Shown here in pieces: positions 17,701-60,899 of a DNA stretch of 64,000 bases. The stretch is from Torymus aiolomorphi (lineage: Eukaryota > Arthropoda > Insecta > Hymenoptera > Torymidae), in NCBI GenBank assembly GCA_036365515.1, contig CM070877.1, positions 19,224,701 to 19,288,700 on the forward strand, read 5' to 3'. Under the pieces are notes generated by a model. It worked only from the letters and a program-made list of their open reading frames with translations, ran no database searches and was not told the DNA's origin. Numbering within the stretch: the first letter of the stretch is position 1; each line of letters begins with the position of its first letter. Position numbers and translations under genes: made by a program.

Positions 17701-17904
17701 TCCTCTTTTAATAATGGCACTGACCGACACTAAATTGCAGGTTATGTCTGGTACATACAGTACGTTTTGTAGCAACACTTTTCTTTTTTTCTGAGGTCCC
17801 TGTTGACAGAGTAAAATATCACCTTCTGCTTGGACGGATAATCTTGCCTTGTTGGCGGCGGTAACTTCACTCCCTCTGGGCTTACGTATATTTGTCATGT
17901 GCAC
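14708..17904 (-). mobile_element. Ty1/copia retrotransposon, pol only, broken
   Basis: The minus strand encodes copia pol in the expected order. The protease tail (HMTN) is followed by the GAG-pre-integrase finger (LWHRRLAHLN and CEVC), the integrase core (LVHSDVC, FLDDYSRK), reverse transcriptase (EETYSPVVRF, LDVETAFLHG, and VFVDDLFVLTN as the YVDD box) and RNase H (GYCDASWA, STEAEHLSLS, ADALTKA). The frames are 17188-17904, 15318-17285, 14974-15309 and 14708-14980, so at least three frameshifts separate them. Gag and most of protease are missing at the 5' end near 17.9 kb. I found no convincing LTR pair. It is a dead, truncated copy. Confidence 0.93.
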
Positions 17905-18094
17905 CTGGCTTCAATAAGTGCAATAACTGACAGTGTAAATTGCTAAGCGGCGCTACGGAATTGTAACATGCGGGTAAACCGGAACCGTCTGGATATATAG
18001 GAAAGTGCACGTCGTAAGAGTGGGCGGGCGAGCTTCATCCAGCCACACTGAATTAACGTACTGTGTCGTTACAATATGTACATAATAAATAACG

Positions 18095-22908: not shown

Positions 22909-22966
<58 letters not shown>
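22909..22966. repeat. (CA)n microsatellite
   Basis: About 29 CA units. They replace the 3' end of the DUF4371 transposase frame, and they abut an 18-bp word (22886-22906) shared with the small palindromic repeats at 20.46 and 25.5 kb. Confidence 0.95.
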
Positions 22967-25900
22967 GTTTCCCATTTTAATTTCCATAGCTGTAATTCAG
23001 CTATTATAATTTTTTCCAGCATGTTTGCTGGTTTATTTAAAATCACAACAAACTTTTCGGCAATTTTACGAGCAGCACTTTTGACTAAATGTTCATCTTT
23101 CAAAATTGCCGAGTCTGGGAATAAGATATTTAAATTATATAAGTCTAAAGTCTTCTCCGAGAAGCGGCACTTCAGATCCTCTATAACATGTTCTATAATA
23201 GGTATGTACATTGACTGTCTGTAATATTCAATAGGACTGTTTGAAGTGTAGTTTTCACGGTATGTCTGTCGACTAGTTTTTCGAGAAAGTTTTATTTCTA
23301 TTTCTAATTCCTCTGCTACACCGCAAGCTTCTTCATAAAGCGAGGAAAATACTTTATCGCAATTATCACGTTTAGATTTTAAAATCTTTAATGTATCTAC
23401 AACGATATCATTAGCTGTTTTAAGGTCGATCTGAGTCTTTTGAAAGAAACGACTTAATTGTACAGTACAACTAAGCAAATCAGAAAGACAAATAACTGCC
23501 ATGAGAAAATCACAATCACAAAGAGCGAGACGCAATATTTTAGCTTTTGATGCTGTTTGAATGTCTTTCCACATAGATATGAATTCAAGCGATTCAATAA
23601 TTTTCGGGAGCAGTAATCTGAACTGTAAAACACCGTCATGTCGTTCTACCCATCGTGTTTCACAGAGACCAGAAAGTTGATGCCCCATGACGGATTTAAG
23701 TGCGTGAGATCGTTTCGATGATGCATTAAAAAACGCTATAGTTTCTTTCATCGTTCCTACAGCATTTCTCACTGATTGAACAGATGAAGACTTTGATATT
23801 GAAAGATTAAGCATATGGTTATAACATGGGCAATAAACTGCATTAACAAGTTCTTTTTGAATAGTCGTAACTGCTCTACAAGATTCAGACGTCATAACTG
23901 AACACCCATCTGTTGTTATACCTACACAATTTTCAAAATTCAAATTTAAGCCTTTTAAAGTTTCAATAACTACTTGTCCTATATTAGAGCCTGTTAATCT
24001 TGTTTCTAAACAGGCTTGCCCAATATCATTTATTTTATTTATTTCGTCATGAAGATTTAAAAATTTAATAAAGTCTTTATAGATTAAATTATTATAAACG
24101 TATCTAATTACAAGGGTCATTTGTGATATATGTGCAATATCTGTAGTTTCGTCAATCATAACACTGTAGAATTTTGCTTTTTGAATACGGTTAACAATCA
24201 CTTGTAAAATTTCTTCAGCACAGCAACTTATAATTTCGTTTTGCGTAGTTTTACTGATATAAGTTGCTCGAACGGAAGTTTGTTTTAAGTGTTCTCGCAA
24301 TGTAGAATCTCCACACTTAATTCGAAATCTTAACAGCTCCCTAAAATTTCCTTCATTGACAGGACTTTCAGATTGCAGTGGTCCATCATCACGGTGGCCC
24401 CGAAAAGCTATATTTTGATGACCGAGAAAAATTACAGATTCAACGATAGGTTTTAGTCGAAGGCGATTTTCTCTAATTTGCTCCAATCTTTGAGAATGAA
24501 CTTGATTTTGTACATCTAATTTTGGATTTTCATTTACTTTTAGAAATGATTTTGCAGCTTGTACAGCGGCGATATGATACTCTCTTGTACTGTGAGTACT
24601 TAGCGCACCATCTTTTCCAAAAAGTTTCGCAAAACTTGTCAGTGGCTGTAATACTAACTTATTTAATACAACATTTTTTCTATAACCCCCTACTCCAGCG
24701 TTTACAAAAAAAGGGCAATATTTACAGTAAAATCCTTTTTTAATGTCACTAAACACAAGCCAATCGAAACCATCTAAATGTTTATGACTAGCATATCTTT
24801 TTTCATCTTTATTATTTTTATGGTGTACAGAGTAAGGAAAGTTATAATTTTTTGGCGGGATCCAAGGGTTTAACAGTAGCTGCTTTTTTATTAAATCATT
24901 AACTGATGTTCCGACAAAATTTCCAATATCTAAAGTTGCACCAGTATCCACAATTTGATTTTTGTTTTCATTCAACGAAATATTATTCACTTCTGTTTCA
25001 GTAGAAAAATTATTTTCAAAAGATGCTTGCATATCACAAGAAGTAACTGTTGATGATTTTGGAACAGATTTATCTTTTGGAATTGTAAAGAAAAAATTTG
25101 TAATTGTATTCTTTTTCTTTTCACTACTATTTAAGTCATTCGAAACGTTTAGCTGAGGTACATCATTTATTACTTTATCTAGAAAATAAAAAATTGATCT
25201 GTTACTTGTAGTTCAGAGCAATTACGTCAATGCATAGAAAAAAGAATTAAAAACTTTACAATAAAAATAGTTTTATTTTAATTGTTGTAAAAAGACAAAT
25301 GTCTACAAAAAATCTAACTTTTATTTCTACGGTGAAATACGATGTTTTTTCAGACCTATTGCAATTTGCAAAATACGCTTATTATTACGGGTGGTAGCTT
25401 CGCATAAATAGTTGAAGCGCGAGAACGAAGCTCGGAAACTTCCATATATATAGTCATATTGTGTTTCCATTTTGCGATTCCAAATGTACACATTGTATAC
25501 CTATATATGGAAGTTTTCTGACAGTATGACAGTATGTAGCTAAAGAGAGAGAGAGAGACCGAAGCTACGACCGACGCTGTACGAGAGGAAGCCATGACGA
25601 CCAGCAAGCTAGCAATCATCACGTCGACCTGCCGAGACGACTGACAACTACCCGTTCACCTATAGCAACCAAGTCCCCGTGTCAGATTGTTCGTGTTCGG
25701 TGATTCGGTCTCCGTGACTATTTCACGCCTCGCTTATAGTGGCTGAGTTGTAGTTATCGCCGCTTCGTTCATACGCTTCAACGATGTATGCGAAGCTATC
25801 CACCCGTAACACTTATTGTAGAGAAAAAATTTATTATTTATGTGAAAATATTACCTGAATTAACATCATGTCGTAAAAGATTAGCCTTATCAACACTGTT

Positions 25901-26744: not shown

Positions 26745-27832
26745 CTCAAATTATATTCCTAATTATATTCCTAACCCCAAGTAGGCGGGGGATGCGGGTT
26801 CCACGCGTATACGGGAGCGCGTCATTCGTGCAAACAAGGGAAAATAATTATTTATATAATTCCTAACCCCAAGTAGGCGGGGGATGCGAGTTCCACGCGT
26901 ATACGGGAGTGCGTTAGACGTGTATACATGGCAAAATAATTATTTATATAATTCTTATCCCCGAGTAGGCGGGGGATGCGAGCTCCACGCGTATTCGGAA
27001 ACGCGTCAGACGTGAATACATGGCAAAATAATTATTTAAATAATTGTTAACCCGACGTAAGCGGGGGATACGAGTTTCACGCGTATACGGGAGCGCATCA
27101 GACTTGTATACAAGGGAAAATAATTATTTATATAATTCCTAACCCCAAGTAGGTGGGGGATGCGAGTTTCACTCGTATACGGGAGCGCGTTAGACGTGTA
27201 TACATACGTGGAAAAATTAAAATAATTCTTAACCTCATGTAGGAGGGGGGTGCTCCCGTATTCGCGTGGAATGCGCACCTTGGAGTTTAGAATTATTTAA
27301 ATAATTATTTTGCCTTGTATACACGTCTGACGCGCTCCCGTATACGCGTGGAACTCGCATCCCCCGCTTACGTGGGGTTAAAAATTATTTAAATAATTAT
27401 TTAGCCATGTATTCACGTCTGACGCGTTCCCGTATACGCGTGGAACTCGCATCCCCCGTCTACTTGGGGTTAGGAATTATATAAATAATTATTTTCGCTT
27501 GTATGCACGTCTAACGCGCTCCCGTATACGCGTGGATCTCACATCCCCCGCCTACTTGGGGTTAGGAATTATATAAATAATTATTTTGCCTTGTATACAC
27601 GTCGGGCGCGCTCCCGTATACGCGTGGAACTCGCATCCCCCGCCTACATGGGGTTAAGAATTATATAAATAATTATTTTGGCATGTATACACGTCTAACG
27701 CGCTCCCGTATACGCGTGGAACTCGCATCCCCCGTCTACTTGGGGTTAGGAATTATATAAATAATTATTTTCCCTTGTTTGCACGTCTGACGCGCTTCCG
27801 TATACGCGTGGAACTCGCATTCCCCGCCTAGA
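26745..27832. repeat. 92-bp satellite array that inverts in the middle
   Basis: Six units in one orientation are anchored at 26775, 26867, 26959, 27051, 27143 and 27233. They are followed by six units in the opposite orientation anchored at 27361, 27453, 27545, 27637, 27729 and about 27821. Spacing is 92 bp in each half. Each unit contains TAACCCCAAGTAGGCGGGGG, CCACGCGTATACGGGAG and an AT palindrome TAATTATTTATATAATT. The switch point is at about 27245-27300. The array has no coding potential. Confidence 0.95.
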
Positions 27833-27841
27833 AAAGAAATT

Positions 27842-28065
27842 TTGAAGCAACTAATTCAATTTTACTCCCTCAATCGTTGGACATGCAAAACTCATTTTTT
27901 CATGTTTCAATTTTTTTCTCAAAAACTAGCCAAAGGAATGGATTCAAATTTTTACAGATTACAGCTGTTTATATTCGACATTATCGCGATTTTTTTCAGA
28001 AAAATTGACCGCTTAGTTTGTGGATTATAAGCTTTTACAAAAAAACTCGTTTTTGTTAATAACAA
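27842..28065. repeat. Dispersed repeat, also at 43.56-43.76 kb inverted
   Basis: The segment from CAATCGTTGGACAT through ATTGACCGCTTAGTTTG to ACTCGTTTTTGTTAATAAC is a diverged reverse-complement copy of the DNA beside the GT microsatellite at 43.24 kb. The open frame here on the plus strand follows from its low complexity and is not called a gene. Confidence 0.75.
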
Positions 28066-28199
28066 CAATATAGGTTTTTTATGCTCTTTTGAATGCTATA
28101 CCTATCTGATTCAGAAATTTAAATCCCATTATTGAAACACACACATTTCGTATATAATAAATCGATAATAACCGAATAACTCACGGTCATGTGACTTAT

Positions 28200-28535
28200 T
28201 TACCCCCAAAAGTGTAAAAGTCTTATAGAATAGTCCGAAGGAGTGTAAATCGATGAAATCAGTCTTTTGAAAGGTTAGCAATAACAATTTACACTTTATA
28301 AAGTAGAAAACATAGATTTTAATTTTTTCCAAAAGTGTAAATATATCGAATTAATCCTTTGAACAAACAGTCCAATGTTTTACACTTTATAAAGTTGAAA
28401 ACGTAGACTTTAATCTTTTGCAAAAGTGTAAAATCATCAAATTAATCTTTATAAAGTGTAAAATCATCAAATTAATCCATATAAAGTGTAAAATTCTTAA
28501 ATTTATCGCTAAAACTGATAAAACGTGCATTTTAC
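28200..28535. repeat. Degenerate short repeats with TTTACACTTTATAAAGT
   Basis: The words TTTACACTTTATAAAGT, AAAAGTGTAAA and ATCAAATTAATC recur many times in both orientations over about 330 bp. It is a decayed repeat cluster interrupting the 92-bp satellite territory. Confidence 0.6.
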
Positions 28536-28564
28536 TCTTTAGTAAAGTAGAAAATAGACGTTTT

Positions 28565-28825
28565 TAACGTTATTGTTGCACGTCTACGTAATTTCCTAAT
28601 ATGCGTGATGGGCCTCATATCCCCCGCCTACTTGGGTTTAAAAATGGTTTTAATAATTGTCATGCTTATTGTTGCACATCTACGTAATTCCCTAATATGC
28701 GTGGACCTTGCCTCCTCCGGCTACTTAGGTTTAAAAATTATTTAAATAATCGTTTTGCTTATTTTTTCATGTCTACATGACTCCCTTATATGCGAGGACC
28801 TCTTAGCCCCCGCCTACTCCCCCCC
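28565..28825. repeat. Diverged outlying units of the 92-bp satellite
   Basis: Three degenerate units keep the words CCCCCGCCTACTTGGG and AATATGCGTG in the same orientation as the second half of the main array. The anchors at about 28621, 28713 and 28806 are again 92 bp apart. The next stretch (28826-29050) holds poly-C, poly-G and CT microsatellites and no gene. Confidence 0.85.
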
Positions 28826-37326: not shown

Positions 37327-40096
37327 TTAATAAAAATGTGTATAATAAAAATACCTTTGAACAAATGGGGAGAGATAATCAGGATTGATTTTCTTCTTGT
37401 TCCACTCTTTCGTTAAATAGCTCGTAATGCAAGCTACAATTATACATATAAATGTTCCAATGAGAACTAAATACATCATAGATATTCGAAAAAAGATCAG
37501 TGGTTCGTCATCTTCGTCTAACAATGGTGGCTCGGGTGCAGTTACATTCACAGTCTGATTTAAAAATTGCGGACAACTTTCAGTTGACATGGGCAGGTGT
37601 GGATACTGTATCCTATTATTCATGACATGCCATTTTGTTCCAGCTACAAGCCAAGTCATGATGATCAAAGAAGTCACACCACCATAAAAGGCGCCTTTTT
37701 CGCCTACCGCTGGGACCATTACACCCAGAATGAAAACTCCCAAAAGTGGACCTTCAACAGCACTGCGAAGGCTTACGGCCATTTCGAAAATCGTTCCTAA
37801 ATGTTCAACAATGAATATAAGACCGATAGTGATCAGTCCTATTAAAACTGAGATTATCTAAAAAATTATTTCATGGGTTATTTTTAAAAAGATGTTACAG
37901 CAATTACTTATTATGTCATTCTTAATATTACAAAATATTACGTATATATACCTTCATTATATTTGCAGATATAGCGTCTTTCTTTGGACTTTCTGGAATC
38001 CATTTGTCAATAAAATCTTCATATATGGTACCAGAAAGTGTGTTAAGACTTGCACTCATTGTAGACAGTGCCGAACTGACGATGCCAGCGAGAAAAATTC
38101 CAGGTAAACCGGGAATTTTTCCTGCAACGTCCATAACATAATAAGGTAAAATTTGATCATACCGCTCGACAATCTTTACAATATAAAGTGCATTAACAAC
38201 TTTTAATAATCAAGAAACAATGGAATAAATTAATTATGACGTTGAATATTACGGTTTACCTTAGCAGATACAAGATCGCAGTCATGATATTTTGCGTACA
38301 TGATGAGTCCTGCAGCTATACATGCCATATTTATAGTGATAGAACCTATTAATATTATTATGAAGGCCCTAAAGTAAAATAATTTTGTATTGAATTACTT
38401 CAATGTTTCAATTTATTTTTCTTCATAAAGTATGTAAAAGTGTATGTAGATTACTTTGTAATGTCCCTTTCTTTTTCTATTGATAAAAATCTTTGAATGA
38501 ACTTCTGACCAACTCCAAAACCACTAAGCCATGTAAATGTCAATCCCACGGTAAATCCCCAAAAACTTGTCCTTACAAACGGATCTGGAGTTAGGCTGAA
38601 AAAATAAAATCAATATTTTGAACTGGTGATCTGGGTAAAAAAGAAAATTAGTAAAAATACTAAATTTCGGTAATCTAACTTTACAACGTCAAGTCTCCCA
38701 CCAGCTTCAGCTATCTTCCAAATTTCAGAAAATCCTCCAGAAGATATTATTCCTAAGGTCAGAACAGTAAATAATCCTCCAATTGTAAAAATAAATTGGA
38801 TAGTATCAGTCCAAATGACGGCTTTCACGCCTCCCTAATAAGTAATTAAAAATATTTAATAAAAAGCATTTCTTAATTTAATCAAGTCTCAAAAATCAAA
38901 TTTTATGATAAATTTTTACTGACCATTGTTGTGTAAGTAATGCAGACAAGGCTTAAAAATGGCGTTATCAAATGGAGGTTGTAACCGGTGACTTGTGCAA
39001 AAGCTATTGCTGGGACGTAAACCACAATTGGGATGTACATCATTAGTGCAATGATGTACATGATTGAGGCAAAACTTCGTATTCGTCGTGAAAATCGCAA
39101 TTCCAAATATTCGTAAGTACTTGCTAGTTGAAGTTTATAAAAAATGGGCATAAAAACGACGGCTGAGATAGTTGTTACGAAAATATTGGTAATTGCTGTT
39201 AGAATGTACTGTGCACCGTGTAAATAAACTTCACTAGGAGTTCCAAGTAACGTAATTCCCGATAGACTGCTGTATAAATGAAAATAAAATTAATTAAAGT
39301 ATGCGTAAATTTTTTAATCAAGTTTTTATATTTATTCTATAAATATATTATATTTTATTGAAAAAAGTATCTGTAATTCGATTAAAGTATATTATATATT
39401 AAAAATAAATTAGGTTTACTTCACAGTTAATAATTTCTTTAGCTAGTTTCATTTTTAGTGTTCAACAGTTGTAAATACATACAGAACATTTTTATAAAAT
39501 TTTTATATATTTTAGTTTTGTATGATGCTCTATATATAATTGTTTATTGCACGAAATACTAAATATATCATTTTCTAGAATAACGATTTATGAGATTCTC
39601 GAAATATATCTCATGTTCGTAAATTGTCGCGAGATATTCTGATTAATCACGAAATAATTGTGTACATTAACACAGACGATGATCAAGATCACATTCGACA
39701 AAGGTCAGACCGAAAAATACATAATAAGTTATACTTCTTACAGCATAACTGCAATTCAAGTAATACGAAGTATCTCAGTAGTAGCGTAGTTTTATTACTT
39801 CTCAGTGCAAGTATTTACATTTGTTTTTCAATAACGATAGACAAATTTTCATTCAGTAGTAATTTTTATAAAAATATTTACCTTGCAATTGTGCTTATTG
39901 CTACAGGTAGATACCCCATATGTTTACCACCGAAGAGATATTCAGCGGCACTATCTTGCTTACTCCAGAATCCGAAGAAAACACCAATCAAGAGACTAAC
40001 TCCAAGCAAGCTGCCAAATAGTAAGTAATCGGACCATCCAAAGAAAAATTGACTAGGAGTACCCATAATACTGGATGTTTCGTTGAAAAGATGCAT
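37327..40096 (-). CDS. SLC5-family sodium/solute (monocarboxylate-type) symporter, copy A
   Basis: A polytopic plasma-membrane symporter that uses the sodium gradient to import a small solute, closest in style to the SMCT/SLC5A8-type and multivitamin transporters. Coding exons in gene order are 40096-39882, 39266-38924, 38834-38680, 38595-38455, 38368-38260, 38173-37952 and 37857-37327. Phases are consistent and give 571 residues, a normal size for SLC5. Signatures are SDYLLFGSLLGVSLLIG in TM1, AAEYLFGGK, STYEYLELRF, GGVKAVIWTDTIQF, FVRTSFWGF and SALSTMSASLNTLSG. The start is the ATG at 40094-40096. The 3' end is either the TAA at 37327-37329 or a splice at 37355, because the paralogue has a donor there. 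No lesion is seen. A substrate cannot be named from sequence. Confidence 0.9.
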
Positions 40097-43331: not shown

Positions 43332-44424
43332 ACGCCTGGATCTCAGCTTCTACTCGGTCGATTTTGACCGGACAGGTCGCATTTTTTTTGTTTTTTTTTT
43401 TTGCGTAATGGCGGGTCAAAAATCCGTTTTTTGTCGATTTTCTCAAAACTGTTTTTTGATTTTTTTTAATGATGGGATCGAGTTATTCGAATCTGATGGG
43501 TACGTTCGAAAGAGAATTAAAATACCTATATTTTCTAAAAAAAAGTTTCTAGCTATCACGGTTCTTTTGTTATTAACAAAAACGTGTTTTTTTTAAAAGC
43601 TTATAACTCCGAAACTAAACGGTCAATTTTTTGAGAAAAATCACGATAATGCAGAATATAAATAGCTATAAGCTCTAAAAATTTGAATCGATTCTTTTGG
43701 TTAGTTTTTAAGAAAAAAATTGAAAAATGAAAACAACGAGTTTTCTATGTCCAACGATTACGGAAGTAAAATTGACTTAATCGCTTTAAAATTCCTTGTA
43801 GAGGTAGATTTTGTATAGTTCTCGGTCGAGTTCTTTGGACAAAATGATTGGTCTAGATATTTCAGAGATATTTGAGGTTAAAGTTTTTTTAACCTTTTTT
43901 TCAAATCGTAATTTCTCGAGAACGGTTCTATGTATCTGGATCGGATGGGTAGCATTCGAAAGAGAATTAAAATATCTATATTTGGAAAAAAAAATTTTAG
44001 GTCTAGCTATCACAGTTCTTTTGTTATGAACAAAAACAAAAACGTGTTTTTTGCAAAAAAGCTTATAACTCCTTAATCCTATCTCCTATCTTCAAAAAAT
44101 GATGGATTAGTTATGACATCAATTTATTAGTGGTTTGGTTGGTGGGTGTAACGGGTCACTAGGTCACAAAAACAAAAGTGGTGTAGTTTCGATAAAATCA
44201 CAGCGCTCACCGCGCGCTTCGAGAATACTAGTGATGTTATATATGTATATATGTATATATTATGTTAAACCTGGAACATTCTTGCCGGTTGATATAAATA
44301 AATAAATGAATGAATAAATTTGAAAATTAATACTTTTTAATCTTGAAAATAAATTTAATTATAATTATGGCATAATTTGTTGCAAAACTTATAAATTTTG
44401 TTATTAAAAATTAATTAAAGGAAT

Positions 44425-44728
44425 TGTGGCAGTTTAAGCTTCACAGCTCTGCCACCAGAGTTCGTGCCAAGTTTCAGCTCTCGCAAGTGGCCGAATCGAG
44501 TCCTTGGTTAGTATATATAGAACTTCCAAGATTAGTACAGACATCCTACTCGAGTCTAAGGCAAGGTTACCATCAGCCTTACTGATGAGTCCACGATGGT
44601 AACCTGGGACGAAACTCAACCTACCTTACCGACCTCTCTCACACCTAACCTCACTTTCTCCATAACCTTTCTGCTCTCCCCACGAGATGCCCTCGTAGAG
44701 TCGCACGGCGGCCTTACGAGCTCGCACA
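44425..44728 (+). repeat. 5' LTR of the retrozyme-like element
   Basis: This 304-bp LTR contains the palindromic end pair GTGGCAG...CTGCCAC, a TATA-like box at 44511-44519 and hammerhead 1. Transcription starting about 25-30 nt after the TATA would begin just upstream of the ribozyme; this is inference. It differs from the 3' LTR by about six substitutions and two single-base indels. Confidence 0.88.
44552..44617 (+). ncRNA. Hammerhead ribozyme 1 (type III)
   Basis: All conserved elements are present in order. Half stem III GAG leads into cleavage site GTC (cut after 44556). Stem I TAAGGC/GCCTTA is a perfect 6 bp. Core CTGATGA is followed by stem II GTCC/GGAC, a perfect 4 bp, then GAAA and closing stem III CTC. 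Stems I and II carry loops and stem III is open, hence type III. Loop 1 contains GGTTACCAT and loop 2 its exact complement ATGGTAACC, a 9-bp loop-loop pairing of the sort that stabilises fast natural hammerheads. Stem III is only 3 bp plus the A-U pair, so cleavage may need dimerisation, as proposed for other short-stem-III hammerheads. Confidence 0.9.
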
Positions 44729-44729
44729 C

Positions 44730-44746
44730 TGGTGACCCCGTCGTGA
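44730..44746 (+). other. Primer-binding-site-like sequence
   Basis: TGGTGACCCCGTCGTGA starts with the TGG expected to pair with tRNA CCA ends, one base after the 5' LTR. I cannot assign the cognate tRNA. Confidence 0.6.
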
Positions 44747-45261
44747 TATGAACACGCAAAAGCAAAAACCTTCTGATACAATCTAATCCGACAAACCACA
44801 AAAGAGACCCCTCAAGGCGTGCGACAGATGACGTCTCGAGCGAGCGGTACAGTGGTAAACCCAATCCTCGAACCGTCGTCACACATGGCAAAAATTGGCT
44901 AGGTGACAAGTAGACGGCATTGCCGGCCGGGATGCCCGGAGCCCGATAAACCCATTCTCTACCTTATCGCCGCAACATGGCAACAAACCGAATGGTAACC
45001 ATGCTCCGGCTCCACTCTTCGACATCCAAACCCGTATCTCCACCAAGCAACGATGGCGGACCTGCTGCAACCGCCACAGCTGTGGAGCTCTTGGGAGCAG
45101 TAAAGCTTAGGATGTAAGCAATCACGCAATCCACACTTCCTGACCTGTAAATTACACATCCTCGCTGTCGGTAACCTCATCCCCACTAACATCAATTAAG
45201 TTTTCGCCTCCGCTCGGGCACTCACTCCATCTTCTCGTTCCTCGCCTACGGCCTCGGCACT

Positions 45262-45269
45262 GGGGAGGG
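45262..45269 (+). other. Polypurine tract
   Basis: GGGGAGGG ends four bases before the 3' LTR, the expected place for the plus-strand primer of an LTR element. Confidence 0.6.
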
Positions 45270-45273
45270 CGCC

Positions 45274-45579
45274 TGTGGCAGTTCAAGCTTCACAGCTCTG
45301 CCACCAGAGTTCGTGCCAAGTTTCAACTCTCGCAAGTGGCCGAATCGAGTCCTTGGTTAGTATATATAGAACTTCCAAGATTAGTATCAGACATCCTACC
45401 CGAGTCTAAGGCAAAGTTACCATCAGCCTTACTGATGAGTCCACGATGGTAACGATGGGACGAAACTCAACCTACCTTACCGACCTCTCTCACACCTAAC
45501 CTTACTTTCTCCATAACCTTTCTGCTCTCCCCACGAGATGCCCTCGTAGAGTCGCACGGCGGCCTTACGAGCTCGCACA
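45274..45579 (+). repeat. 3' LTR of the retrozyme-like element
   Basis: This 306-bp direct repeat of 44425-44728 has the same TG...CA ends and TATA-like box (45361-45369) and contains hammerhead 2. Confidence 0.88.
45402..45468 (+). ncRNA. Hammerhead ribozyme 2 (type III)
   Basis: It has the same fold as hammerhead 1: GAG-GTC with predicted cleavage after 45406, stem I TAAGGC/GCCTTA, CTGATGA, stem II GTCC/GGAC, then GAAA and CTC. Changes from copy 1 fall only in loops and outside the core. Loop 1 now has AGTTACCAT and loop 2 ATGGTAACG, so 8 of the 9 loop-loop pairs remain. Cleavage at both sites would release an RNA of 850 nt. Confidence 0.9.
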
Positions 45580-47934
45580 GAATCACAAAATTAAGTTTGA
45601 GGAAGCAATGGGCCAATGAATTGGCAGCGGTTTTTTTTAGTGACAGCGATTTATCATTTTACTCGCTTTCCCATGCTCTAATTTTTAATCTTTTTAAATA
45701 TAAGAAATCGCCAAGACTTCGTACTTTTGAAAACATTTTTAAAAGTACGTAAATGTAAAACATTTTTATTAAATGGCGTTAATCATATAAGAGAAGGCAA
45801 ACTTTTTAACATTCTTTTGAAAAATCTCTTATATTTACATTTTCGTACTTCTCAAATAATTGTTGCAAATAAGTTAGAACGTCCCGATAATCTCTCAAAT
45901 AAGACAGTGCGAAAAATTTAGTACTTTTTGAAGCTACGTTTGTCATTTTCAAAGCGATATTTTAGTAGAGAGATAATAAGTCCAGCTTCATTGAAAGCTG
46001 GACTCGATCGGCTATTGCGATAAAAACCAACTCGGCATTATTATCCCGACTATATTATATTATATTATTGCTTGTTTTTCTCTGGGCTTTTTGATTGACG
46101 GCGAGTCGACAAGATTTTGAATTTTACATTGTATAACAAAGTTTATGTTTAATACTTTTTAATGTATTCAATCATAAGTTTTCCCTGAGAATAAGTGATA
46201 TTTCAAATTAAAAATTTTAAACGATTTTTTAACAAATTATCATTTACATTTATTAACTTAATGTTTGGCAGGGATGCCTTGAATACCATATGACAGTATT
46301 ATTACTGTCATAAGAGTTTATTAAATGTTATTTCCTAGTATTTATTAATTATTACTATTTTTACATATCATTTTTTTTGCACAGTCTGAAAAAATAACTT
46401 GCTAAATCTTTTTCTGGACTTTAAATGGTCTCTGTATTCATTGGTTGCCTTCTCGTTGGTGCCCTCCGAAAACAAATGCACTTATTGTAATTGATAGATG
46501 CAGTGCAATAAGTTCCTTTGGCCAAACAACCAATTAATTATTTTTAAAAACATCCTGCTCAATATAAAATGTTAATAAAATTTATTATTTATTTTACGTA
46601 CAAAATCTTTTTATATTTAAATTCTGTTTCGCGCAAGCTAGATAAAGAAAGCAACTAAAAATAGCCAAATACTGTAAAGAAGAGGTGGAAAAGAAAAATG
46701 TTATCGGGCTAATATAATATAGTCGGGATAATAATGCGGAGTTGGTTTTTATCGCAATAGCCGATCGAGTCCAGCTTTCAATGAAGCTGGACTTATTACC
46801 TCTCTACTAAAATATTGCTTTAAAAATGACAAACGTAGCTTCAAAAAGTACTAAATTTTTCGCACTGTCTTATTTAAGAGATTATCGGGACGTCCTAAAT
46901 TGTTTGCAACAATTTGAGAGGTACGAAAATGTAAATATAAGAGATTTTTCAAAAGAATGTTAAAAAGTTTGTCTTCTCTTATATGATTAACGCCATTTAA
47001 TAAAAACGTTTTACATTTACGTACTTTTAAAAATTTTTTGAAAATTTTTAAAAGTCTTGGCGATTTGTTATATTTAAATAGATTAAAAATTAGAGCATGG
47101 GAAATCGAGTAAAATGATAAGTCGCTGTCACTAAAAAACATGTATATATTTTTAAAAAACATGAACGAAAAACTGAATTGAAAAACATGTATATAATTAT
47201 ATATTTTACAGAAGAGTTATTATATTTACTAAAATATGATTTTTCGAATTATTAAAATTTCAACTCTACTAGATCAGTAAAAAATATGTATAACATAATA
47301 ATATTTTTTTATGTTATGACTATAAATGATTATATTTCCGAGTATATGGTGGTTTCATTACATCACAAATATAAATGCAAACTGTAAAATCGTTTAGGGT
47401 CATAATCCTAGCCCATTTGGATTTTGACTTGGAATTTTCGTTTTAGTTTCTGTGAGGCTTAACTAAAACAATTAAAGCACAAGCGCATTTTTTCCGCATC
47501 GCCTTTGGGCACTTTCGGTTATACAGTTAAGCGATATTCTAATTATTCTTCAATTAAAAACTGTGACTGTACTTTATTGCATTTTACATATAAATAAAAT
47601 AAGGATTCTTTCGCACAAAGTAAATATAACGATATTTATAATTAATTTACTCTCGGTGAATTAATTTATTCAGGATACAAAATATTCATAACTGAACAAA
47701 TGTTATCCAAAATATCATAGTACTTTAATAAAATTAGCGCATTCAATAAAATAATTTTCAAAAAAAGCTAATTTTATTGGTAATGTTTTCTAAAAGAAAA
47801 AATATATCAATTATAATTAAAATTTCAATTCTACTAGAGAATAAAAATTGAAGTAAAAAAAAGTGTGTTGTATAATAATATAATAAAAAATTTTACGTAT
47901 GTTAGAAATGAAAAAAAAAAAGAAAAAAATTTGT

Positions 47935-48770: not shown

Positions 48771-49664
48771 TCAATAGCGCCACAAGTGCAGTATGGCAAG
48801 TCGGTGAGATTTTTTTCTGAATAGACTGTGATTTAAGCTATAGTGGTTTGAGCGCATGCGGGAAAAGGTGGAAATTTGAAATTTTGAAAGGTTGTTAAAG
48901 CGGAAGAACCAGGAAGTGCTGGACTCAGGAGAGCTATTTTCGAAATAGAATACGCCTTTTGAGAGATCGGTGGTTGCGAGAAAGTCATTGAATATGGAAA
49001 GAGCTCGTGATTTATTGAAGTGTCTGAGGTCGGAGTGGGGGATCAAATATTTGATGAGACGGCCTTCGTGAGAAGCTTTTTTGGCTAGAGAGTCGGCGAT
49101 TTCGTTGCCAGGGATACCGCGGTGTCCTGAAATCCAAACAATTACGTTATTGAGGTCTAGTGAGGATAGTTCGAAAAGGAGTTGCTTAATTCTGAATATG
49201 GTGATATGTTGGGAGGGGATTAAAAAGGTGGTGTTATTAAGGGCGTTGATGGTGCTAAGAGAGTCTGTAAAGATGATTGACTTTTTAATGTTGTTTTGTA
49301 GAATGTATTCTAGGGTGATTTGAATTGCGAGTGCTTCGGCTGAGAATATGGTGGAGTGGGAGGAGATTTTTGCTTGGAATTTTAAATTTAGTGGGGGAGG
49401 GCAAAACACGGCTAAGCCTACGTAGTTACCGTCCTCGGACTTTGAGCCATCGATGTAGAATGGGGTGTGAGTAGAAAGGGTGCTGGAGAATAGTTTGAGG
49501 AATTCCATGGGTGGCGAGAGGGCTTTCGAAATAATTTTTCCCATAGAGGTTTCAATGTCGGAAGGGCGCTGTTGTATCTTTGAAGGGAAGAAGTAGCATA
49601 TGGGTATGGGGCAAGAATAGATGGAGGTTTTGAGTGGTTTGAGTTCGCGGTAAGCTTGAATCAA
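48771..49664 (-). pseudogene. LINE ORF2 RNase H domain
   Basis: Catalytic blocks are PFYIDGSKSEDG (Asp), SAEALAIQ (Glu), IIFTDSLSTINAL (Asp) and WISGHRGIPGNEIADSLAKKA. The frame is open from the M at 49664 and ends at 48771 with a truncated cysteine-poor tail. RNase H removes RNA after first-strand synthesis in I-type LINEs. Confidence 0.88.
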
Positions 49665-49743
49665 GGGGAGGCTTTGAAGGTAAAGGGGTTTGCTGGGTGT
49701 AATTAGTTGAGATAAGTCAGAGAGTGAGTTAGCAACTGGGTGG

Positions 49744-51144
49744 TTAGTGATTGAGAAGCATCTGAGAACGAAAATAGAGGAGAGTTGTAGTTATCTTATG
49801 CGGAGAGGAGGGAGCTTCTGCGTAGACGACTCTGTTCGGAGTTGAGGTTTGTAAGCCTATCGCAAGTCTGAGGGCGCGGCGTTGAATAACGCCAAGCTTG
49901 TTGAAGAGCTTATTGCAGGAGGAGGGGATACATGAGAGGCCATAATCTATAGAGCTAGCTATTAAAGTTTTGTAAAGTAGGATGAGGATGCGTGGGTGAG
50001 CGCCCCACCAAGTGGAGCGAAGGAATTTGATGATGTTAATGCAGGAGGCGGTCTTTTTTGTCAGTGCGTTAAGTTGTTCTGCCCACGTTAGTCTTTGGTC
50101 AAGGATGAGGCCTAGAAATTTGGCGGAAGGTGAGGGATGGATGATTGAGTTTTCAAGGGTAATCGCGCAGTCGGGAGGTTCGCGGTTTTTGTGATGGAAA
50201 ATCACGAGCTTAGTTTTCTCTGGAGAAAATGAGAGGCCGAGAGATTTTTGGTAATTGCTGATTTTATTTAGATTCTGTTGGAGGGTTGAGATGCAGTGTG
50301 TGAGATCTGGAGAGGAGACGAATATGGCTATGTCATCAGTGAAACTAAGGCACTGACAGTTAGAGATTACTGATTGGAGCTTGTGAGTGCCTAGGTTATA
50401 CAATGTGGGGCTTGACACGCAGCCTTGAGGGATTCCTTTGCGGGAGAGATAGGGACCTATGAGCTTTCCGTTGACGTTAAAGTAGAGGGAGCGTTCTGAA
50501 ATGAGGTTATGGTAGAAAAGACAAATAGAGCGTGGAAGGCCAAGGTTTTTGAGAGTGTGGATTATGGAGTCTGCGTCAATGTCGTCAAAAGCACTTTTGG
50601 TGTCTAGGAAGAGAGCGGCTGTATAGTAGCCTTTAGCGTAGCTAGAGTAGATTTCCGATGTGAGGATAGATAAGTTATCTTGACACGATCTAGCCTTTCT
50701 GAAGCCGAATTAAGTGGAGGGGAACTTAAAGTTATGTTCAAGCCACCAAGCTAGACGGGAGTGAACTAGTCTTTCGAATACTTTGAGAAGTGATTGGGCG
50801 AGTGAAATAGGTCTGAATTTATTTGAGGAGCCTTTAAGAATAAAATGAATGAGGAACTCTTTCCATGATTTGGGAAAGGTGCCGTTAGTGAAGATGGCAT
50901 TAAAGGAGGTGAGGAATGCTTCGATGAAAGAGTCTGGAAGTTTAGCAATGATTCTATTGTCAATTAGATCTAAGCCTGGGGCGGAGTGAATTTTAGAGCA
51001 GTTTGCTTTGATGGCCGCGTTGAGTTCAAAGAGAGAGAAGGGTTCATTAAAGAAGGATTCTGTATCTTGGGAAGTGTTGAATGTCGAGGGAAAATTGGAG
51101 TTTATGCAGGATGGTGGGCAGAGCGAGGATATGAGTTTAGTCAT
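49744..51144 (-). pseudogene. LINE ORF2 reverse transcriptase domain
   Basis: RT blocks are present in order: SWKEFLIHFILKGS, FRPISLAQSLLKVFERL, FGFRKARSCQDN, AALFLDTKSAFDDID, GIPQGCVSSPTLYNL, LSFTDDIAIF as the catalytic box, and KFLGLILDQRLTW. A single TAA (50710-50712), probably a mutated Gln codon just before FGFRK, interrupts an otherwise continuous frame. Downstream, a frameshift near 49750 separates it from RNase H. Confidence 0.88.
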
Positions 51145-51451
51145 ACTGTCGATGTTGGCTTGATTGTTAGAAGCTGCAGGGGCAGCCAGCGCTCTGTGGT
51201 AGAAGCGTTTTATGGTGTTCCATATTTGTGGGAGGGGGTGAGAGGATTGATAGATTCACAGAAGGTTTTGAAAGACTCACGCTTGGCTTTACGGAAAACG
51301 GATTTTGCGTGCTTTTCCGCTTCGATAAGTTCTGTAAGGAGAGTGGGATTCTTTCTAAAGTTATGGAGTGCAGATTTTCTAGAAAGGTTGGCTTCGTGAC
51401 ATTCATCGTTCCACCATGGTGGTTGAGGGGGAGATTTTGAGGGTTTGACTT

Positions 51452-52390
51452 TCATAGGAGGGGGATGGGGCCAGGGGGAGGGGGATTTTTGTTGTTAGAA
51501 ACTGCGTTGATGTTATGAATAGTGGAGGTTATAGTAGAAGTGATGAGGGTGTATATGTCTTGAGAGTCGTCGGTGGGAGAGAAATTGTCAAGAGAAAAGT
51601 CGTCAAGGTGGTTGTGAAAGGTTGCCCAGTGCGGTTGTTTCCAGGATTTAAGGTTGTGGCGGAGTGCGAGTTTTTGCTGAGGAAGGGTGGGAATGCCTAT
51701 ATTAATGGTGATGGGGAAGTGGTCGCTGACGAAGTTATCTTCTCCAATCGACCACGTACAGATCTGGAAGAGTGTAGAGGAAACAAAAGTTAAGTCGATG
51801 CAGGTGGGGTTGCCGGAGTTGGGTTTATTGATGAAAGTGCGGGAGCCGTCGTTGAGAAGAAGGAGGTTATGATTGAGGAATAGGTTATATAGTGCGTCGC
51901 CGACAGAGTCTTTAATTTTGCTGCTCCAAGCTGCATTGTAGCAGTTGAAGTCGTCGCCTATGAAGAGGGATCTCGAAGGAAGGAAGTTTAGGAGAGATTG
52001 CCAGTGATGTGAGGGAAATGTAGGGGATGGGGATCCCCATCTGTAAACTGCGGCTATACTGAGGGGGTCCTGTCGATTTGCTAGGGAGATGGAAATGGCA
52101 AGGGTTTCGATGACTTCAGGTATGAAGGGAGTGTTGGGAATTATGGAGAAGGTTAGATTGTTTCTTATAGCAATAGCGACTCCGCCGCCTCTGCTGGCAG
52201 GTCTGTTTTTCCTAAGGAGAGTAAAGTCGCGTAGAGATAAGTTTGTTTTGAGATTTGATTTTGTTTCTAGGAGAATGATAATGTCGAAGAGGTGGGAAAT
52301 GGTTTGGAGGTGTGGTTTTCTTTGTGTGAATGAGTTGCAATTCCATTGGAGAATGCGAAGAGAATTACTATTGTGTGGGTGTCTGGCCAT
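51452..52390 (-). pseudogene. LINE ORF2 endonuclease domain (EEP/APE type)
   Basis: This domain nicks target DNA to prime reverse transcription. From the start at 52390 it shows LRILQWNCNS, LLETKSNLK, GGGVAIAIRNNL, SLFIGDDFNCYNAAW and the catalytic SDHFPI. The usual GDFN is followed by CYNAAW where a histidine is often found, so activity may be reduced. The frame is lost after PPPPGPIPLL; the linker continues in another frame at 51210-51455. Confidence 0.85.
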
Positions 52391-54477
52391 TGTTAAGTGA
52401 TTTAAGGGAGTTAAAAGCTTCTAAGAGAGACGAAATTTTGTCAGAAGGAGGAAGGTTGCGGCAGATTAGAGGAATTAGAATGTTGCTGATTAGTTCTAGA
52501 AGGAGGTTGATGGCGTCGGAAGGATTGTTGGGGGTTGCAAAGTATTGGTAGGAGGAAGGGGATTGGTTTGAGTTCGGCGATGATGATGATGCTGCGTTTA
52601 GGGATAGGTCGGTGGGTTCGGGGGAAGGAGAGAGAGGGAGAGGTGTTATTAAGGGGGGTATAGAGTTTGAATAGGAGGATGCGGCAGTGTAGTGACGAGG
52701 AGATACGTTAAGAGAGGGATAGTAGTTGTGGTGAGTCAAGAAGTTTTGGGGGGGGGGGGGCAGAACTGAGGTCTATCTGGGGAACGAGTAGTGGAATTGA
52801 GAGCACCTGTAAAGGAGAGTTGTGAGGGTTGGCTGGAGCGCGAAAGGAAGTATCGAGAGGTTAGGCTATTATAGCCTGAAAAAGGGGGTGGCGGAGATGG
52901 TGAAGGGAGAGAGAAAGAAGGGAAAGTTTCTGTGATTAAGCGGGGGTGGCGGAGATGGTGAAGGGAAGGAGGGAAAGTTGTTGTGATTAAGCAGGGGTGG
53001 CAAGTGAGGAAGTTGGCGTTGAGTGAGCTTTACTCGACACGGGTGCTTCGGAAGATCTGCTTTGGATAGGATTGCATAGGCTTCATGGATGGAGATGTTA
53101 TTTTGGGCTGCATAGGTTTTAGCTTTTTGTTGGTACAGAAATTCGGGGCATGATTTGTCGCTGGGTAGGTGAAGGCCTTTGCAGTTGATGCAGAGTAGGT
53201 TAGAGGAATTGGGGCAAAGGTTGTCTGGATTGCTAGAGTAATGTTGCTTTCTCCCACAGTTGATGCATAGAGTTTTGCTTCTGCATTAGGCTCTGATGTG
53301 CCCGTATCTGAAGCAGGAGAAGCACATTCTCACAGGAAGAGAGATGTCAACGGGGTGGATTACAGGGAAGAGGTGGACGAAGGGGGGAAGGTTTTGGCCT
53401 TCAAAGGTGATCTGGATGGATTTCGTTGGGACGTATACGATTACACCGTCTGGGGATGTCGTCTTGCGGTTTAGTCTTCTGACATTAGTGATCGGGTAAG
53501 GAGAGGAGGCGAGGTTAAGGATGTGATCGTCGGGGATTTCTAGGGGGACATCTCTAATGATTCCTTGTCTGTTCAGACAGTGGGCTGGGATGGAAGCTTT
53601 GTTAGCAGAGGGTCCGAGGTGAGATTGTTTGCAGAAGTGGGGTTAGAAAGCACAACTATTACTTTGTTGGCGCCTGAGGATTTAACTGTTTCAAGGGAGT
53701 TCTTGTACGGGTCGGCAATCAAGCGTCCAACAGTAGTTGGGTTGAGATTACTTTTCTCTTTGGTGGTATCTATTTCGATTGGCTTAATAAATACTATATA
53801 TGGTCTTGTGTTCGCCTGGGAGTATCTTGGGGCGTTGCGAGACTGCGGGGGGGTTATTTTCCTTGGAGGAATCGGTGGAGGGGTTGAAGATGGCGATGGC
53901 GGCAATTGGGCTGCTGCGGCGTCTGCAGTGAGCGATAGGCAAGCCGTTTTGAGTGGTCCGGTAGATTTAGATTCTGAGTCTGAAGAGTTTCCTGAGCGGT
54001 TTCTCTTTGTACCTGTTTGGAGTTGAGAGTTGCTTGCAGGTTGATTGGCCGGGGTAGAAGAATCCGGCGGGCGGAGAGAGTCTGAAAAATCAGTTGAGTT
54101 AGAGTTAGAGTTAGCTGTAGTGGGGGAGGGAGGAGCATGAGTGATTCGGGGGGAAGGGACGGGGGGTATCCAGGATTTGGGGTCGGGGAAGGGTCGGGGT
54201 TGGAAACTAAATCTTCTGTATCCATATGAATCTTCTACGAGGACTCTTCTTCAGCATTCGAGCATGATGAAAGTGGCAGCTTGCTGCCGGGCGGGACGTA
54301 GAATTTGTTAGACGTTAGATTGTTATCTGTAGTTTCTGGGAGGTTTTTAAGTTTAATTTTATTTTTGTTTTTAGTCATAGTGAGAGGATTTAGATTTCCA
54401 CTAGAGTTGAAAGAGTTAGAATGAGTATGCGTGGCCGTCGACCACCGCGAAGAGGTTAGAATTTTAAAAAGCGTCAA
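52368..54477 (-). pseudogene. LINE ORF1 (gag-like, CCHC zinc knuckles), broken
   Basis: The readable gag segments run from about 54477 down to 52368, spread over several frames. A proline-rich N-terminus comes first, then PYIVFIKPIE and VGRLIADPYKNSL, GIIRDVPLEIPDDHI, SPYPITNVRRLNRKT and VRMCFSCFRYGHIRA. Three zinc knuckles follow: the CFSC finger, CINCGRKQHYSS...C and CINCKGLHLPSDKSC. There is a stop inside the first knuckle and frame changes near 53570 and elsewhere. The last segment (52368-52739) overlaps the ORF2 start by 23 bp, a usual arrangement for translational coupling. Confidence 0.8.
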
Positions 54478-59105: not shown

Positions 59106-59312
59106 AAATTCATATTATTTAATATGATCGTTAAATAATTTTGTTCAACACGAGTATAAAATGAGCCCTTTTCCATGCCTGCAAGTTCAGTAGGAAATTG
59201 CGGATATCGAGCGTGCTTCGGAAAAGCAAGAGATAATATTAATATTCGAGAATAATATTTATCAACTTTATTGTGCACGACTCTAAATGTACAATAATAT
59301 TAATCTACTCAC

Positions 59313-60899
59313 CTTCGAATTATTGGAGAAACATGATCTGGATTAATCTTCGAGATGTCCGATTCTTTGACTAGAAAACTAGTAATTACTGCGATAACTA
59401 TTGTAATAAATGTTCCCAGCATTGTGTAATATAAAAATGAGATCTGAAACAATATCATTGGCTCGTCCTGGACATCGAGAGGGGCGAAAGTTACATTCTC
59501 GATTTTCGGTTCGTTTAAAGGGTAAGAGCAGTTGTCGACAGACATAGGAAGGTTCGAAAAACGAATTCTATTGTTCAATTTGTGCCATTTAGTGCCGATG
59601 ATGATGTACAGCATAACCAACAAAGAAGTGGACGCGCCCATCATCGCACCCTTTTGTCTAGCCCAAGGGAAGAAGATACCGAGGACAAAAAGACCCAAAA
59701 TCGGTCCATCAACTGCACCACGAACTGTATAAGATATTTCCAGAACTGTTCCGAGCTGCTCAATCACGATGATAAGCCCAATGCTGATCAAGCCAATGGT
59801 AACGGAAATAATCTAAAATATTGACAATAATGTATTGTCCGAGTTGAATTGGAAATAATATTATCCTTTTGATTGACAGAAATAAAATATACATATAATT
59901 TTTTTTTCCATATTCCTACCCGTATACCATTATGCAGGATTTCTACGGGACGCCCCTACCGCCTTGGCGTAGGTGGGTTTTATCCTAACACCCTTCCCTA
60001 TATTCCTGCATTCGCCCAGGGTTCGCGCTTGCACACACCTCCTGTGGTGTGGGAAAACCTCAATGCCAGGAGGGAAAACCCACACCAGAAACAGCGGGCA
60101 GAGGAGTCAAACTTGAGTATGTTAGAGAAAACAAGCTCAGGTTATCTATCCTCCTCTGCCTGCCGGCTTAAACACCATTAATGTTCTCTGTCGGTACGGC
60201 AGAGCGGTTGCCATCCAAGTTTTAAAAACTGCCTATTTTGTTACTTGGATGTTCACTCTGCCATGCGACCAGAAAGTGCATTAATAGGCCGGCTGCGAGC
60301 TGCGGTCTTACCAAGGCACATGATCAATTTTTTCATTCGAAAAAAAAGTCAGAGGTGGCCGGCAGAGAATCGAACCCGAGTCTCCCGGACAGGAGGCCGG
60401 GCTCTTACCCATGAGCCACCGCGGCTCTCCTTTACATATAATATTTATATATTATATATGATGTAATGAATCGAAACTGATTATAATTCTCAAACCTTCA
60501 TGATACTGGTGGCTTTTGCATCTTTGTTTGGATTGTCAGCTATCCATCGGTCAATAAAATCATCATAAATTATGCCAGATAGAGTATTTATAGACGCACT
60601 CATTGTGGACAAAGCGGAACTTACGATCCCAGCCAGAAAAAGTCCAGCCACACCAGGTATATTTTTCGTAATATCCATTACATAGTAAGGAACAATTTGG
60701 TCACTTTGTTCGACAAGCTGTAAGAAAATTCAAATAAACGAAAAGCGCAGAAGCGCTTTGGAAGCAAGTATTTTTATATTCTTTTTTTACTTTTGTACTT
60801 ATAGGATCACAGTTGTAATAATGAGTATACATTATGAGTCCAACGTAAGTGCATCCAATATCTATGAAAATTGTACCGATTGTTTTTAACAATACAGCT
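59313..60899 (-). CDS. SLC5-family symporter, copy B (partial, 5' exons outside window)
   Basis: Three exons of a paralogue of the 37-40 kb symporter are visible in gene order: 60899-60791, 60717-60496 and 59813-59313. They encode KAVLLKTIGTIFIDIGCTYVG, then IVPYYVMDITKNIPG and SALSTMSASINTLSG, then the C-terminal third with IGTKWHKLNNRIRFSNLP and NPDHVSP. Exon borders and phases match copy A one for one, so the two arose by tandem duplication. The last visible exon ends at a donor (GTGAGT), so a further 3' exon is expected but was not found. The 5' exons must lie beyond 64000, because the intron above 60899 is filled with repeats. Confidence 0.88.
59900..60432 (-). mobile_element. tRNA-derived SINE in a symporter B intron
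   Basis: The same 10-mer TACATATAAT flanks the unit (59890-59899 and 60433-60442). The head at the high-coordinate end reads, on the minus strand, AGAGCCGCGGTGGCTCATGG and later GGGTTCGATTC, i.e. A- and B-box-like elements about 50 bp apart. The other end is an A-rich tail. At about 530 bp it is long for a SINE, with a body full of GC-rich segments. The tRNA part lacks good T- and acceptor-stem pairing, so it is not a working tRNA gene. Confidence 0.85.

Follow-up and report, generated by a model that had tools for sequence, protein, structure and literature searches.

A 64,000-nucleotide stretch of the Torymus aiolomorphi genome (contig CM070877.1, positions 19,224,701-19,288,700 of the forward strand; hereafter the window, numbered from its first letter) carries at 44425-45579 a non-coding long terminal repeat (LTR) element of 1155 bp with a hammerhead ribozyme motif in each LTR. 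This confirms the overall observation of an earlier sequence-only reading of the same DNA. We consider the element to be an animal LTR retrozyme, copied via a circle made by its hammerheads and with the help of CsRn1-clade Ty3/gypsy elements, and put the probability of this at roughly three in four. The earlier proposal of an LTR-type retrozyme is supported by the architecture, the dispersed copies, the target duplications, an empty site, the primer site and covarying ribozymes. The parts of the element, in window coordinates, are as follows.

44421-44424 (no strand): target-site duplication GAAT, 5' copy (sequence, and lone GAAT at the empty site in L011)
44425-44728 (+): 5' LTR, 304 bp, TGTGGC...CGCACA (LTR alignment)
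44512-44519 (+): predicted TATA box TATATATA, beginning 45 nt 5' of the predicted cleavage site
44552-44617 (+): type III hammerhead of the 5' LTR (Rfam match and family alignment)
44552-44555/44614-44617 (+): stem III of the 5' hammerhead, GAGU/ACUC
44556 (+): C17 of the 5' hammerhead (hammerhead alignment)
44556/44557 (+): predicted self-cleavage site, 5' LTR (from the hammerhead alignment); 44557 would be the 5' end of the 850-nt RNA
44557-44562/44576-44581 (+): stem I of the 5' hammerhead, UAAGGC/GCCUUA
44564-44605 (+): loop-loop pseudoknot of 11 bp, AGGUUACCAUC (44564-44574) with GAUGGUAACCU (44595-44605), a predicted pairing
44582-44588 (+): core CUGAUGA of the 5' hammerhead (hammerhead alignment)
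44589-44592/44607-44610 (+): stem II of the 5' hammerhead, GUCC/GGAC
44611-44613 (+): core GAA of the 5' hammerhead (hammerhead alignment)
44557-45406 (+): putative RNA between the two predicted cleavage sites, 850 nt, the proposed circle
44729-45273 (+): internal non-coding region, 545 bp (LTR bounds and open reading frame check)
44730-44747 (+): primer-binding site (PBS), complement of the 3' 18 nt of tRNA-Trp, with one mismatch (44741) in the window copy
44748 (+): PBS+19, opposite tRNA position 58 (1-methyladenosine, m1A58), the most homoplasic of 547 internal sites
45262-45269 (+): polypurine-tract-like GGGGAGGG, immediately 5' of the 3' LTR (sequence and family comparison)
45274-45579 (+): 3' LTR, 306 bp (LTR alignment)
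45402-45468 (+): type III hammerhead of the 3' LTR (Rfam match), with a shorter pseudoknot of nine continuous pairs
45406/45407 (+): predicted self-cleavage site, 3' LTR (from the hammerhead alignment)
45580-45583 (no strand): target-site duplication GAAT, 3' copy (sequence, and the empty site in L011)

The LTRs of the window copy have the ends TGTGGCAG...CTCGCACA and agree in 298 alignment columns, with six mismatches and two gap columns. The sequence-only reading had described direct repeats of about 305 bp with TG...CA ends, a GAAT target duplication, a PBS-like site, a polypurine tract and no coding capacity. Each of these holds: the LTRs measure 304 and 306 bp, GAAT stands on both sides of the element and once at an empty paralogous site, the PBS complements the 3' end of tRNA-Trp, the purine tract is present (if short) before the 3' LTR, and the longest ATG frames code for 51 residues in sense and 77 in antisense. 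The boundary GGGCGCC/TGTGG at the start of the 3' LTR is common to the window copy and to families C and D (the family labels A to E are our own), and the spacing from TATA box to cleavage site is identical in the family C copy L041. The 850-nt stretch has a GC content of 53%, compared with 29% for the flanks (1 kb on each side).

In a 2-kb search the Rfam model of the type III hammerhead, RF00008, matched 44549-44620 (37.4 bits, E = 5.8e-6) and 45399-45471 (39.8 bits, E = 1.2e-6), giving one complete hammerhead per LTR, as had been claimed. The covariance-model scan proposed at that time had a divided outcome: run over the whole window at its default setting it reported no hammerhead, because both scores fall below the gathering score of 48.5, and over 2 kb it succeeded with E about 1e-6. 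Both hammerhead loops align to the model as long insertions. The outermost pair of the pseudoknot is A-U in the window copy and G-C in most copies of subfamily B. From the predicted cleavage sites we recover the 850-nt spacing earlier assigned to a junction between 44556 and 45406. Self-cleavage at these sites would release an RNA that could form an 850-nt circle, for which a circular minimum free energy (MFE) of -236.9 kcal/mol is predicted in the window copy.

The hammerhead was aligned in 53 LTRs of 28 loci, 39 of them in subfamily A and 14 in subfamily B. By eye the core is intact in 49, three of which have U in place of C17, and broken in four. Within the two subfamilies a pseudoknot pair is the sole pair that varies on both sides. 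Comparison between families, with 33 distinct hammerheads (a count without L039 and a copy of L063, at 40.0 and 36.8 bits), reveals in each of the four helices one pair changed on both sides: A-U/U-A/C-G in stem III, U-A/C-G in stem I, A-U/G-C in the pseudoknot and U-A/C-G in stem II. Alignment was guided by the nested model R1, not by the pseudoknot. There were 22 double-change cells, a number reached by 0 of 500 shuffles (4.5 ± 1.9), and slid structures gave no more than one; the count of pairs having double changes (four) and the number of pair types (13) were not unusual, occurring in 125 and 146 of 500 shuffles, respectively. The exact core of families C and D is found 64 times in the genome and its reversed control pattern 0 times. 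Minor variants are rarer in the hammerhead than in the rest of the LTR (0.8% versus 2.6% in subfamily A; 1.7 versus 4.3% in subfamily B). The aligned sequences indicate that the ribozyme is conserved by pairing and not merely by descent.

The genome searched comprises 1.08 Gb in 21 contigs, and the family search scored 40 of 278 candidates; copy numbers are lower bounds. The expected genome-wide copies were found, with at least 53 matches to the element, of which at least 16 are near full length at 94-100% identity, the window copy included. An exact 4-bp target duplication of varied sequence flanks 17 of 25 LTR-paired copies, and four more (L012, L016, L020 and L026) have one mismatch; the duplication is not in place in L009 (two mismatches), L022 (displaced by five bases) and L017 and L028 (incomplete at one end). 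The set of 25 does not include L018, L019, L027 and L030, each with a single LTR, or L021, which occupies the same place as L005. In L003 the LTR pair is identical across 304 bp. The earlier call for empty sites was answered by L011, in which 469-307 spans the joined flanks of the window copy at 88% over 163 nt with one GAAT at the junction; L042 also crosses this junction, at 81% over 80 nt. When 20 joined flanks were compared with 364 kb of sequence, an outside match across the junction was obtained for the window copy only. A joined-flank match of L016 was rejected as an empty site, being an inverted repeat in that copy's own flank. Dispersed copies, target duplications and the empty site together define a mobile family. 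Separately, a short repeated sequence at window positions 26760-28819 also flanks L026 and is present in L034, L053 and L079.

The PBS reads TGGTGACCCCGACGTGAT in most copies examined, with one change in the window copy; the genome contains 108 occurrences of the 18-mer and 0 of its reversed control. Complementarity with the T arm of tRNA-Trp extends past the PBS to about 44757, except at 44748. In the coding element L046 (1443-1518) the PBS continues into a full-length tRNA-Trp-like complement of 76 nt including CCA. ARAGORN and Rfam both call this captured copy tRNA-Trp with anticodon CCA, and the identity of the primer rests on these calls; an exact 37-nt tRNA-Trp complement occurs in the genome only inside L046, with no separate tRNA gene. 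We infer that tRNA-Trp primes reverse transcription.

The base after the PBS, PBS+19, behaves unlike its neighbours. In subfamily A (21 copies) it is A in 11, C in nine and G in one; in subfamily B (seven copies) it is A in four and C in three; the complementary T is present in none of the 28 copies (L021 was left out of these counts). Elsewhere among the first 30 sites, departures occur in at most one copy of subfamily A, and in subfamily B site 7 is variable as well (C in four, A in three). In loci of families C to E, which lie outside the counts, the base is mixed too, with T in L076. Parsimony on 25 internal regions, using a tree made without these columns, requires seven steps at PBS+19 and three at the next highest of the 547 sites. 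Primer tRNAs, reportedly tRNA-Trp among them, carry m1A58, at which HIV-1 plus-strand synthesis stops or reads through (PMC13191261); yeast Ty3 has been reported not to inherit tRNA sequence (PMC5371799). The recurrent change is likely to be a scar left when copying of the primer tRNA continues beyond m1A58 and wrong bases are inserted time and again, which would require m1A58 on the tRNA-Trp of this species and its misreading by the enzyme of the element. Substitutions that recur at the base facing nucleotide 58 may, more generally, reveal tRNA-primed copying in the sequences of LTR elements.

Candidates for a helper were sought at 50 PBS loci (L031-L080). These are the first 50 in coordinate order on C2-C5 outside the known A and B copies, not a random sample, and 1.5-2 kb was examined on each side, such that a Gag motif farther downstream would escape. 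The Gag motif CX2HX9CX3C (CHCC) lies downstream in 24 loci, one of which (L066) has a stop within the motif, a hammerhead in 14 and neither in 12; motif and hammerhead occur together in none of the 50 within 1.5-2 kb after the PBS. Some of the 12 have Gag frames in which the motif has decayed or lies beyond the examined stretch, and L033 and L055 have the same frames as L066, with the motif expected past that stretch. DUF7041 was recognized in two Gag frames, and RVT_1 and RNase H domains in a third stretch. The sole coding element with both ends examined, L046/L081, has LTRs TGTGGC...AACA with AAGT on both sides. The LTR 3' ends before the PBS include CACA and CTAAA types, each found in coding and in hammerhead elements. 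Coding elements have the same 18-nt PBS, corresponding to the shared 3' box of the plant type; for the 5' box the comparison is with L046/L081 only, where the LTR start TGTGGC is common and the purine tract different.

CsRn1-like elements have been described with a tRNA-Trp site, 4-bp duplications, TGT...AAA or ATA ends and a CHCC Gag (PMC2582038), and a second account gives CsRn1-clade features likewise, but with a 6-bp duplication in its own element (PMC3630058). Since the coding elements share the PBS, the 4-bp duplication (in L046/L081) and the CHCC Gag with these descriptions, the helper is probably a group of CsRn1-clade Ty3/gypsy elements, and mobilization would take place in trans by such co-resident elements. 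We rejected the idea that the element is itself an autonomous member of the clade: it is non-coding, and the CHCC motif was found in none of the 14 hammerhead loci in the 1.5-2 kb after the PBS.

The primer-site search also provided the loci of family C (L041, L053, L060, L073 and L076), family D (L039, L063, L077 and L083) and family E (L065). Family C has 14 near-full copies at 89-100% identity. The would-be circles measure 850 nt in the window copy, 774 nt in subfamily B (L024), 1084 nt in C, 1194 nt in D and 725 nt in E. In L083 (277-3076 of the reverse complement of the locus) family D forms a tandem of three LTRs and two internal regions, LTR-INT-LTR-INT-LTR, whose two 1194-nt units have five differences and which is bordered by ACTT on both outer sides. 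This tandem is compatible with multimeric copying of a circle and with unequal LTR recombination alike; its last LTR has a U5 unlike that of the other two, which recombination also explains. A subfamily A tandem, L005 (1499-3443, outer duplication GATA), was rejected as a simple rolling-circle product: there are 24 differences over 484 sites between its internal units, L005b grouping with L013 and L016, and from these sequences it is a mosaic whose two internal units come from separate lineages.

Our model for the copying of the element is as follows. RNA polymerase II would begin transcription close to the 5' LTR's TATA box, at a position predicted from that box to lie just upstream of the ribozyme, and continue through both LTRs. 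The hammerhead in each LTR would cut the transcript, stripping its terminal repeats and leaving the 850-nt RNA with 5'-OH and cyclic-phosphate ends, which the host tRNA ligase, RtcB in animals, could close into a circle. On this circle tRNA-Trp at the PBS would prime reverse transcription by CsRn1-clade Ty3/gypsy enzymes supplied in trans, and the DNA product would integrate with a 4-bp duplication. Because double cleavage removes the terminal repeats, the linear RNA would be incapable of the first strand transfer, for which the circle would stand in. The same point has been made for plant retrozymes (PMC4918200).

Several observations weigh against this model. The predicted circle is only 57% paired, with a z score of -2.3 (56% and -0.5 in subfamily B), which is below the more than 70% quoted for retrozyme RNAs, a reported trait of those RNAs rather than a defining one. 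The nested hammerhead alone has -10.0 kcal/mol, compared with an MFE of -20.3 (-15.4 and -28.3 in family C), and in the MFE fold the pseudoknot strands form a plain hairpin that excludes stems I and II, so that a more stable, inactive fold competes. The family C ribozyme is not recognized by Rfam at E ≤ 1. Conservation was discarded as proof of ribozyme function, since the U3/promoter part is conserved about as well as the hammerhead and only the 3' part of the LTR less so. Finally, L022 (1439-2148) has integrated although the ribozyme is gone from both of its LTRs. These are 83 bp long with the same deletion of promoter and ribozyme, at a GGCC repeat, and the copy terminates in five PBS-junction bases (CTGGT) ahead of its GGCT duplication, the kind of end that plus-strand DNA extending into the primer would leave. 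The deletion is compatible with a template switch during the reverse transcription of this copy, from either template.

The strongest alternative is one that we regard as unlikely while giving it real weight. The element would be of the TRIM type (terminal-repeat retrotransposon in miniature), dependent on CsRn1 elements and moving by a linear, terminally redundant RNA; the hammerhead would be a passenger, or would trim or destabilize surplus transcripts, with circles as by-products. All of the evidence for mobility fits equally, classical strand transfer yields a deletion shared by both LTRs, L022 integrated without a ribozyme, and the conservation of the ribozyme is not clearly above that of U3. 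Cleavage a few tens of bases past the TATA box, and a second time within the 3' LTR, would, however, remove the repeated R ends on which linear reverse transcription depends. A linear-only element would thus suffer from an active ribozyme, which has nevertheless been kept with compensatory changes between families, and the deletion in L022 may date from its own reverse transcription.

Two further explanations are very improbable. If an ordinary LTR element merely contained a hammerhead-like sequence, by chance or in decay, this might account for Rfam scores under the curated cut-off and for the four broken cores among 53 LTRs. We rejected this reading on the covariation, since all four helices show compensatory changes between families; the 64 exact occurrences of a diverged core and the E values of about 1e-6 over 2 kb also speak against it. 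The element might instead be the DNA copy of a viroid-like or hepatitis delta virus (HDV)-like circular RNA agent, captured by an LTR element and still circulating as RNA. Its longest frame, of 77 residues, is too short for a relative of the delta antigen, the model built for the family gives the minus strand only 17.5 bits (E = 0.028), and the boundaries are those of the LTR element. Identity with the animal elements already known, non-LTR metazoan retrozymes or Penelope-like repeats, might be suggested by a hammerhead in an animal repeat but is refuted by a hammerhead of type III and not I, true LTRs, a PBS, a purine tract, 4-bp duplications and 53% GC in a 29% flank.

The retrozyme reading of the window element can be widened, tentatively and with the odds somewhat against it, to a group of animal LTR retrozymes (at least five families, A to E, in one genome) that parasitizes CsRn1-clade elements, the helper's enzyme re-copying the hammerhead-made circles and leaving nearly identical concatemers with a single outer target duplication, as in L083, and the m1A58 scar in new copies. 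If this were true, plant and animal LTR retrozymes would be convergent or linked by transfer.

The rest of the window contains other repeats and gene fragments. On the minus strand lie Ty1/copia-type polyprotein pieces (15318-17910), the larger frame with RVT_2 and an integrase core; a DUF4371 frame (22909-25212) that continues into a (Val-Cys)n simple repeat and that we take to be probably a relative of hAT-like transposases; and a non-LTR retrotransposon (48771-52420) with endonuclease and RNase H domains and a reverse transcriptase-like frame between them. Similar frames at 37327-37857 and 59309-59812, also on the minus strand, are of the sodium-coupled monocarboxylate/multivitamin transporter type (the first was searched) and probably paralogues. 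Positions 1094-10431 on the plus strand hold probable exons of a BIRC6/Bruce-type ubiquitin-conjugating enzyme, identified from the last frame (9781-10428), whose best PDB match is 'BIR repeat containing ubiquitin-conjugating enzyme' (302.8 bits; BIRC6 chains 271 bits), an entry we take to be Drosophila Bruce.

The sequence-only reading had contrasted the element with animal retrozymes that are non-LTR, of type I and tied to Penelope-like elements, and the open-access literature agrees. LTR retrozymes are treated there as elements of plants. Metazoan retrozymes are described as non-LTR with type I hammerheads (PMC7229834, PMC7761336, PMC11722881), are probably linked to Penelope elements, and are still presented as non-LTR and type I in a review of December 2024 (PMC11722881). 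Searches of the open-access PMC literature, a body that excludes most subscription journals and all bioRxiv preprints, brought up no paper recognizable as an account of an animal LTR retrozyme. The claim that a type III LTR version in an insect would be new stands for the LTR-retrozyme context and falls for the motif: pseudoknotted type III hammerheads have been reported in dipterans and termites, partly as 'in preparation' (PMC7936874), and insects with type III hammerheads are mentioned similarly elsewhere (PMC7761336), so others may have unpublished related data. Because Rfam misses the long-looped family C ribozyme, related families may be overlooked in other genomes. A young, multi-family animal version offers a tractable system in which to ask whether a ribozyme-made RNA circle can template the reverse transcription of an LTR element, and it bears on the debated origin of hammerhead circular RNAs, viroids and HDV-like agents.

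Compared with known systems, the element is closest in form to plant LTR retrozymes (PMC4918200), which have LTRs of 300-400 bp each with a type III hammerhead, a 4-bp duplication, a PBS, a polypurine tract, a non-coding centre of 300-600 bp, a predicted RNA of 600-1000 nt, a 3' box common with co-resident Ty3/gypsy elements and, in places, tandem units. It differs in its animal host, in the primer (tRNA-Met in plants, tRNA-Trp here), in CsRn1-clade helper candidates, in a predicted RNA that is less self-paired, in a circular RNA predicted from sequence alone, and in an 11-bp pseudoknot between loops of 13-16 nt where plant loops usually have 6-8 and 4 nt. Metazoan non-LTR retrozymes (PMC7229834) are likewise non-autonomous animal elements with hammerheads, but of type I, in tandem repeats of 150-450 bp with GC below 50% and without LTRs, PBS or polypurine tract. 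With CsRn1-clade Ty3/gypsy elements (PMC2582038, PMC3630058) it shares the tRNA-Trp PBS, 4-bp duplications and, in family C, TGT...AAA ends; those elements are autonomous with CHCC Gag and Pol, and none of the 24 CHCC-bearing PBS loci here has a hammerhead. The pseudoknotted type III hammerheads of dipterans, termites and HDV-like RNAs (PMC7936874; PMC3088659) also occur in insect hosts and have Watson-Crick loop pairing between helices I and II. In PMC7936874 they have a longer helix I in which an internal-loop GCCR pairs with YGGC of loop 2, and in the portions of the two papers cited a surrounding LTR element is not described for the insect examples. TRIM and SMART elements and Helenus/Ajax (PMC10886601) are short non-coding LTR elements mobilized in trans, some in insects; that source names retrozymes as a separate group, and Helenus/Ajax have small-RNA-gene-like sequence and no ribozyme. 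The window element resembles TRIMs in being short and non-coding with LTRs, a PBS and a polypurine tract, and at 1155 bp exceeds their limit of <1000 bp. Against this background, the new features are the animal host of an LTR retrozyme, a different primer tRNA, a different probable helper clade and the long pseudoknot between the hammerhead loops.

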